The notes under the pieces: model-generated
The model's database searches: none
What the model was told of the DNA's origin: nothing
What the model saw: only the letters and a program-made list of their open reading frames with translations
Translations under genes and position numbers: made by a program
In this document: positions 13,284 to 14,766 of the stretch, piece after piece
How positions within the stretch are numbered: position 1 is the stretch's first letter
How the letters are laid out: each line of letters starts with the position of its first letter
Source of the DNA: Methanosarcinales archaeon
GTDB taxonomy: Archaea > Halobacteriota > Methanosarcinia > Methanosarcinales > Methanocomedenaceae
Direction: 5' to 3'
DNA: 34,801 nucleotides
Assembly (NCBI GenBank): GCA_014859725.1
Contig: JACUTQ010000005.1
Span: forward strand, 1-34,801

Positions 13284-13293
13284 TATTTATATG
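13284..13293 (+). promoter_or_regulatory. TATA box for cdrS-ftsZ2
   Basis: TATTTATATG is the best TATA-like element on the plus strand before cdrS. The expected start of transcription, about 25 bases on, falls near 13313, inside the second unit of the 11-bp array. The leader would be about 108 bases. A second candidate lies at 13260-13270. Confidence 0.45.
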
Positions 13294-13299
13294 ATTAAT

Positions 13300-13398
13300 G
13301 TCAGACAGATAGCATACAACCGTCATACTTTTGTCAGACATACAGCAGACGAAGAGCAGACAAGCGTCATACATTCGTCAGACGCATGTCGGACAGAT
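13300..13398 (+). repeat. Nine tandem 11-bp units before cdrS-ftsZ2, probable operator array
   Basis: Nine units begin at 13300, 13311, 13322, 13333, 13344, 13355, 13366, 13377 and 13388. Each starts with a heptamer fitting [GA][TG]C[AG][GT]AC, for example GTCAGAC, AGCAGAC or GTCATAC, followed by four variable bases. The period is exactly 11 bp, close to one helical turn, so the heptamers all face one side of the DNA. The array runs from just past the TATA-like box to 8 bases before the ribosome binding site. The period is not a multiple of three and there is no start codon, so it is not coding. Ribbon-helix-helix proteins are known to bind tandem short repeats, so the adjacent CdrS is the natural candidate ligand. 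That assignment is inference. Confidence 0.85.
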
Positions 13399-13420
13399 CT
13401 GAAAGGGAGGGAGTAAACCC

Positions 13421-13612
13421 ATGCAAAGAGTAACAATAAGGCTCCCCGAGCAACAATTAAAAATGATCGATTTGATGGTCGACCAAGGAGAATTTCCGTC
13501 CGCGAGTGAAGCAATCAGGGCGGCTATAAGAGACCTGATAGATCAAAGAAGTGATAAAATCATCCGTAACCTTCAATTGTTGGAACGGATAGGAACAAAA
13601 ATAAATGCATGA
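13421..13612 (+). CDS. cdrS: Ribbon-helix-helix regulator CdrS
   Basis: The 63-residue product is a short ribbon-helix-helix (CopG-like) DNA-binding protein: a beta strand [11 protein letters not shown], a first helix ([11 protein letters not shown]) and the [16 protein letters not shown] helix typical of the fold. It sits directly before ftsZ2, the arrangement known from haloarchaea, where CdrS is a regulator of cell division genes. The ribosome binding site GGGAGGGAG lies 6 bases before the ATG. The stop TGA overlaps a non-preferred ftsZ ATG at 13609. It has a 209-base upstream region containing the 11-bp repeat array. I infer autoregulation of the cdrS-ftsZ2 transcript. Confidence 0.87.
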
Positions 13613-13632
13613 ATAACCAGAGGGGATGTAAA

Positions 13633-14766
13633 ATGCAAAATATTGTACAAGAAGCATTAAAAAACTCGGAAAAGGAAAACCTTGCCAGACAGAGTTTCCA
13701 GATCGAAGATATAGGAGAAGATTTCGGAGACCCTAAGATCGTAATAGTAGGATGTGGTGGTGCAGGTAATAACACCATAAACAGACTCTATAATATGGGC
13801 GTTAAGGGTGCAGAGACAATAGCAATCAATACGGACAAACAGCACCTTGAGATGATCCAGGCAGATAAGAAGATATTGGTAGGTAAATCACTAACAAGGG
13901 GCCTTGGCGCTGGCGGTTATCCTGAAGTGGGCCGCAGAGCAGCTGAACTTGCAAGAGGGACATTGGAAGAAGTCCTGAAAGGTGCAGACCTGGTATTTAT
14001 CACAGCAGGCATGGGTGGCGGAACTGGTACTGGAACCGCACCAGTGATTGCTGAGATCGCCAAACAACACGACGCAATTGTAGTCGGAATGGTATCAAGC
14101 CCCTTCCGGGTAGAAAGAGCACGGGCAATTAAAGCAGAAGAAGGTTTGGAAGAATTAAGAAAAGCAGCTGATACAGCCATAGTTCTTGATAATAACAGGC
14201 TGCTGGATTATGTACCCAACCTGCCGATCGAGCAGGCATTTTCTGTGATGGATCAATTAATTGCCGAGACCGTTAAAGGTATCAGCGAAACTATTACTTC
14301 TCCATCATTGATCAACCTGGATTATGCTGACGTTAGGACCATTATGGGGTGCGGCGGCGTAGCAGTAATGCTGGTTGGAGAGGCCAGAAACCAGGATCGA
14401 GGCGACTCGGTGGTAAGAGCAGCCCTGAACCATCCACTGCTTGATGTAGATTACAGAGGTGCAACCGGATGTCTGGTTCACATAACAGGCGGACCTGATT
14501 TAACATTATCAGAGGCTGAAGAGGTTGCTGAAGCTCTAACATATGAACTTGACGATCGTGCAAATGTCATTTGGGGCGCAAGAATCAACAAGGAATATGA
14601 AGGTCGGGTACGTGTCATGGCTATCATGACAGGTGTTCAATCACCAAATATCCTGGGTCCACAGTCACAGCCCGTACGACACAGCGAAATGACAGGTATG
14701 CTTGATAGAAGACCTGTTGCACCAAGAAACAACGGTTCCATTATAGACGTAATCCCAATGCATTAA
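13633..14766 (+). CDS. ftsZ2: Cell division GTPase FtsZ, FtsZ2 type
   Basis: This 377-residue tubulin homologue forms the division ring. Landmarks are [10 protein letters not shown] near residue 40, the tubulin signature [24 protein letters not shown] and the synergy-loop region [11 protein letters not shown] that completes the GTPase site of the neighbouring subunit. The N-terminus (MQNIVQEAL) and the body resemble haloarchaeal FtsZ2 more than FtsZ1, and the cdrS neighbour agrees. I start at 13633 because GAGGGG lies 7 bases upstream and haloarchaeal FtsZ2 proteins begin in the same way. An upstream ATG at 13609 adds eight residues and overlaps the cdrS stop, so it is less likely. Confidence 0.93.

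Follow-up and report, generated by a model that had tools for sequence, protein, structure and literature searches.

A conserved array of nine phased 11-bp units in the cdrS-ftsZ2 promoter of a Methanosarcinales archaeon, a probable operator for CdrS

Introduction

Tandem operator arrays read by ribbon-helix-helix (RHH) proteins are already known, the Omega heptads and the Met boxes being examples. Omega, the ParB of pSM19035, is an RHH protein acting at 7-10 tandem heptamers that overlap promoters, including that of omega itself; one RHH dimer is bound per heptamer, with low affinity when a unit stands alone and with high affinity when at least two are present (PMC9499535). For RelB, the placement of dimers on one helical face requires exact spacing (PMC2812701). 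MetJ recognizes tandem palindromic 8-bp Met boxes, and Arc dimers occupy adjacent half-sites that are spaced by about one helical turn and face the same side of the DNA.

In Haloferax volcanii, ChIP-seq of the RHH regulator CdrS yielded 18 sites and a symmetric motif (PMC8406309). How archaea set the levels of their division tubulins is nevertheless unsettled, and published work on CdrS did not resolve how the protein acts on its own operon. Here, we describe a phased array of short sites at the cdrS-ftsZ2 promoter of a Methanosarcinales archaeon and compare it with cdrS promoters from other archaea.

Results

The window, by which we mean the whole stretch of 34,801 nucleotides that was analysed (GCA_014859725.1, contig JACUTQ010000005.1, positions 1 to 34,801, forward strand), contains the following features in and around the cdrS-ftsZ2 promoter.

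13284..13292, plus strand: TATA box TATTTATAT of the cdrS-ftsZ2 promoter, with a BRE-like AAAC before it (from the sequence; 12 family genomes show no indels between the box and unit 1)
13300..13398, plus strand: nine-unit putative operator array, heptamer GTC-N-GAC every 11 bp (sequence, period test, shuffles, comparison across loci)
13311..13317, plus strand: unit 2, expected transcription start (inferred from the usual archaeal TATA-to-start distance, unmapped)
13405..13413, plus strand: ribosome-binding site GGGAGGGAG (from the sequence)
13421..13612, plus strand: cdrS, encoding a 63-aa RHH regulator (Pfam RHH_1, alignment, structure prediction)
13609..14766, plus strand: ftsZ2, encoding a tubulin-like division protein, with a 4-nt overlap with cdrS (Pfam FtsZ)

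Elsewhere in the window, positions 1067-2746 of the minus strand encode a protein of 559 aa that has a PGF-CTERM sorting signal and matches to multihaem cytochromes below threshold, features that fit a surface electron-transfer protein.

An initial annotation, made from the sequence alone, had proposed nine units with an exact 11-bp period at 13300-13398, placed 7 nt past a TATA box and ending before the ribosome-binding site of an RHH gene, cdrS, that is followed by ftsZ. All of this held, the two gene identities through Pfam and the period far above chance. The pattern [GA][TG]C[AG][GT]AC given for the heptamer is matched by 9/9 units (starting at 13300, 13311, 13322, 13333, 13344, 13355, 13366, 13377, and 13388), with four variable bases separating neighbours. 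Between the end of TATTTATAT at 13292 and unit 1 there are 7 nt, and 6 nt lie between the end of the array and the GGGAGGGAG ribosome-binding site, which is followed by the cdrS ATG at 13421. The period-11 self-similarity of the array is 12 SD above the window mean and the highest among the periods of 5-24 tested in the window, and its score of 51.9 compares with a maximum of 37.0 among 300 dinucleotide shuffles of the region. The genome-wide search for more arrays that had been suggested as a check was also run: a three-unit profile gave three matches in the source genome, all inside the array, and no further arrays were found there, loose pair matches outside the array remaining at control level. 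The array is thus unique to the cdrS-ftsZ2 promoter in this genome.

Refining the earlier description, we find the heptamer to be a small dyad, or pseudo-palindrome, with the consensus GTC-N-GAC. Across 12 genomes of the window's family, the mean entropy is 0.25 bits in the units versus 0.90 bits in the spacers. Of the 87 units of this family, 83 have A or T at the central position, and several relatives have GTCTGAC where others have GTCAGAC; both are as expected for a dyad and would be tolerable to a two-fold symmetric reader, such as an RHH dimer. Some unit variants, for example AGCATAC, are poor palindromes, which counts against the dyad-operator reading.

The stretch from the TATA box to unit 1 is free of indels in the window's family (12 genomes). 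The same 7-nt gap is found in most other lineages, Archaeoglobus included, while in Methanosarcinaceae and Methanocellales it measures about 18-20 nt, roughly one helical turn longer. A gap that is either constant or longer by about one turn indicates that the array keeps helical phase not only internally but also with the TATA-bound complex. At the distance usual in archaea between TATA box and start, transcription would begin in unit 2. The downstream position of the array relative to the TATA box is clear; its overlap with the start site rests on this inferred start. A conserved one-base irregularity adjoining the TATA box was seen in one family (f5; loci L013, L014, L016, L017, L019-L021, L023, L025, and others), where units 1 and 2 are mostly 12 bp apart and later units 11 bp; it counts against the operator reading.

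A close cdrS was found in 62 of 238 genomes of the same class. Two or more units in 11-bp register are present at 69 of 70 cdrS promoter loci (four genomes were apparently counted twice), compared with 0.8% of promoters after shuffling. Among loci that do not belong to the window's family, 470 of the 548 unit pairs are separated by a multiple of 11 bp. At ftsZ2 loci without a detectable cdrS, no in-register pair was found in 20 of 21 cases, the remaining locus having one weak pair. The annotation had called for a search for the period in relatives that have CdrS and for a comparison of copy number. The former was passed, as cdrS-bearing relatives, close or distant, show the period, and the latter gave a range of 2 to 9 units in register. 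Nine units also occur in a second family, at eight loci from about six genomes of an ANME-3-related group (L043, L045, L261, L263, L264, L270, L272, L273), and recognisable units were seen in Methanocellales, Methanocalculus, and Archaeoglobus. The locus meets our criterion for a polymeric operator, namely several short sites repeated in tandem, at a fixed helical register, over a promoter. No site was found upstream of ftsZ1 in the window's family, where this gene lies closely behind another reading frame. Weak profile matches near an aminotransferase start in one genus (g2) overlap coding sequence and were dropped. A plasmid search gave no matches.

The first gene product meets our definition of CdrS, that is, a short RHH protein (63 aa, RHH_1) encoded directly upstream of ftsZ2. 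The DNA-reading beta-strand, which reads M[EQ]R[VI]T[LI]R[LI]P in almost every sequence, is common to the window and the haloarchaea; R7 is invariant, and R3 and T5 are at least 90% conserved. Structure prediction confirmed only the strand-helix-helix order (pLDDT 80, one chain, with an uncertain short last helix), and a fold search returned ParD antitoxins and NikR with E-values that are not significant. Neither carries a claim about docking.

The same element was found at haloarchaeal promoters reported to be CdrS targets. In all 3.8 Mb of H. denitrificans there are three perfect copies of GTCNGAC-N4-GTCNGAC, two of which lie upstream of ftsZ1 and hisB, both among the H. volcanii CdrS ChIP targets (PMC8406309). 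Scanning four ChIP-listed targets in two Haloferax genomes, we found the element upstream of ftsZ1 and hisB (perfect), psmB (two mismatches), and dacZ (three mismatches), with the best centres at -58, -79, -75, and -50, respectively, from the ATG. The published CdrS site offsets from the start site are -50, -76, -72, and -47 in the same order (PMC8406309), an identical 3-nt shift in three of the four targets. As the psmB and dacZ elements are weaker, both rest mainly on position, and the match as a whole is based on the promoters of four targets in H. volcanii relatives, not on the published motif logo. At the ftsZ1 locus, a pair with at most one mismatch is present in 8 of 10 haloarchaea; in the six measured, the element starts -63 to -67 from the ATG. 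The array supplies a consensus for CdrS, GTCNGAC at 11-bp spacing. Upstream of dacZ, the diadenylate cyclase gene, a Halogeometricum locus (L209) shows three 11-bp units, CGCAGAC, GTCTGAC, and GTCAGCG, a hint that CdrS sites are longer at some targets in haloarchaea.

Discussion

Comparison establishes that the operator is conserved, that it keeps register with the TATA box, that it is linked to cdrS, and that it resembles the element at CdrS-bound haloarchaeal promoters. The nine sites are, with high probability, docking sites for CdrS, the first product of the operon itself; this conclusion is comparative, and we have no binding data here. It is supported by the conserved operator, the linkage to cdrS, the same element at Haloferax ChIP targets, the conserved DNA-reading strand (R3, T5, R7), and the reported absence outside Halobacteria of CdrL, a regulator discussed below. 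The reading preferred in the initial annotation, an array on one helical face that is bound by CdrS for autoregulation, is likewise supported, with binding, the sign of regulation, and titration remaining inferred.

CdrL offers a view of the same promoter in haloarchaea. It was reported to bind the Halobacterium cdrS-ftsZ2 promoter region and to be absent outside Halobacteria (PMC7439475), and it probably binds this region in Haloferax as well. Its DNA-reading strand is K-x-T-x-R. Haloarchaeal cdrS promoters carry GTAAGAC-N4-GTCTTAC, a sequence with no other perfect match in either of two Haloferax genomes. The pair, which we propose as a CdrL site, lies near the expected start site (loci L069-L072 and L074-L110), often with an extra GTAAGAC or GTCTTAC upstream or downstream at other spacings. 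We infer that a diverged copy of the CdrS operator became the binding site of CdrL; the array suggests that haloarchaea passed the site to this second regulator with its sequence altered. In Haloferax sp. Q22 (L120, about 1501-1518), GTGAGAC-N4-GTCTCAC near another RHH gene is possibly a related altered operator.

The most likely function of the array is that of a polymeric CdrS operator that covers the core promoter and start site and serves cooperative negative autoregulation of cdrS-ftsZ2, although binding, repression, and the start site are all inferred. In this model, each GTC-N-GAC heptamer would be held by one CdrS dimer through its antiparallel beta-ribbon (R3, T5, R7); one dimer per unit is an inference. 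The 11-bp repeat would set successive dimers on the same helical face, where they could touch, giving binding that is cooperative along the array, a property inferred from the register only. Since unit 1 directly adjoins the footprint of TATA/TFB and the expected start falls in unit 2, a full array should block or stall transcription. With nine predicted CdrS sites before cdrS-ftsZ2, the operon probably sets its own output, and the autoregulation may keep FtsZ2 within limits, a dosage buffering that is again inferred. The H. volcanii authors also link site positions over the core promoter or start to repression. Overexpression of cdrS alone disturbs or inhibits division and that of cdrS and ftsZ2 together stimulates it, which fits repression. 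The drop in ftsZ2 upon cdrS deletion in Halobacterium and the omission of this promoter from the H. volcanii CdrS ChIP table, both taken up below, count against the model, and the haloarchaeal data on repression point both ways.

Several alternatives were considered. CdrS might bind the array and activate, or activate at low and repress at high occupancy. In favour of this, ftsZ2 is 1.3-2.2-fold lower, not higher, upon cdrS deletion in Halobacterium, where CdrL occupies the promoter; in addition, most H. volcanii CdrS sites are upstream of promoters, and ftsZ1 drops on CdrS depletion. The array in the window, however, covers the expected start and the leader on the downstream side of the TATA box, and division is inhibited by cdrS overexpression, so that we consider activation unlikely. 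Another protein (NikR, a CdrL-like protein, or an unrelated factor) might be the main reader, with CdrS merely a neighbour. This finds support in the CdrL binding described for Halobacterium, in the omission of the cdrS-ftsZ2 promoter from the H. volcanii CdrS ChIP table (PMC8406309), and in a NikR-like gene in the source genome, the product of which is the only other RHH_1 match there. Against it, CdrL is not reported beyond Halobacteria, and the array occurs where cdrS does and resembles the elements seen at CdrS targets; we regard this alternative as remote. The NikR operator consensus is the inverted pair GTATGA-N16-TCATAC; 13300-13398 contains no GTATGA, hence no half-site pair, and NikR was rejected as the binder.

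The repeats could also work in the mRNA, through folding or an RNA-binding protein, as the annotation had allowed. Most units lie in the expected 5' leader, and single-sequence folds gave z-scores of -2.9 and beyond. With a null that preserves the units, however, z ranges from -1.9 to 0.2, and the structures predicted for different species are not alike, so that fold stability comes mostly from the self-complementarity of the units and the RNA-level alternative is weakened. The leader has no Rfam match above threshold and does not meet the criterion for a structured RNA leader (a curated family or conserved pairing), and the 11-bp register with the TATA box, together with matching elements upstream of other promoters, points to DNA. 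We hold an RNA-level role to be highly improbable. A neutral expansion of repeats, or structural phasing with no specific binding protein, is supported by the tandem arrangement and nothing else; with units conserved across genera while spacers vary, and the register kept across families, it is practically ruled out.

Returning to the CdrS operator, a bolder reading is conceivable, in which the array is a graded molecular counter: starting at the TATA box, nine CdrS dimers would assemble on a single face of the leader DNA and extend in the direction of the ribosome-binding site. If this were true, FtsZ2 output would be a steep function of CdrS per promoter copy, division capacity would be tied to cell volume or genome copy number, and lineages would tune the counter by gain or loss of units (2 to 9). 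With or without the counter, the conserved phased operator provides a direct, testable element of FtsZ2 control in methanogens and anaerobic methane oxidisers.

An array of this form at cdrS-ftsZ2 is undescribed in the full-text literature searched, most subscription papers being outside the search; within this scope, the statement in the initial annotation that no described array of this form was known held. By analogy, the Omega heptad arrays and the RelB operator are closest in action. The Omega heptads, however, are contiguous (7-bp period), have the non-palindromic sequence WATCACW, and double as plasmid centromeres (PMC9499535), whereas the units in the window are pseudo-palindromic with 4 bp between them, giving the 11-bp period. 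RelB differs in using two 12-bp half-sites made from four hexads, with the toxin as co-repressor (PMC2812701). The Met boxes have an 8-bp period and are few, and Arc uses two half-sites only; neither system is archaeal. The CdrS sites of Haloferax share the regulator and, as identified in the present analysis, an element of two heptamers 11 bp apart, but were reported mostly upstream of other promoters, with no array on the regulator's own operon (PMC8406309). In Halobacterium the operon is the same, but its promoter region is bound by CdrL (PMC7439475), and haloarchaeal cdrS promoters have one pair of changed sequence. What appears to be new is thus the combination of nine dyads at one-turn spacing, in register with an archaeal TATA box, at a cell-division operon.
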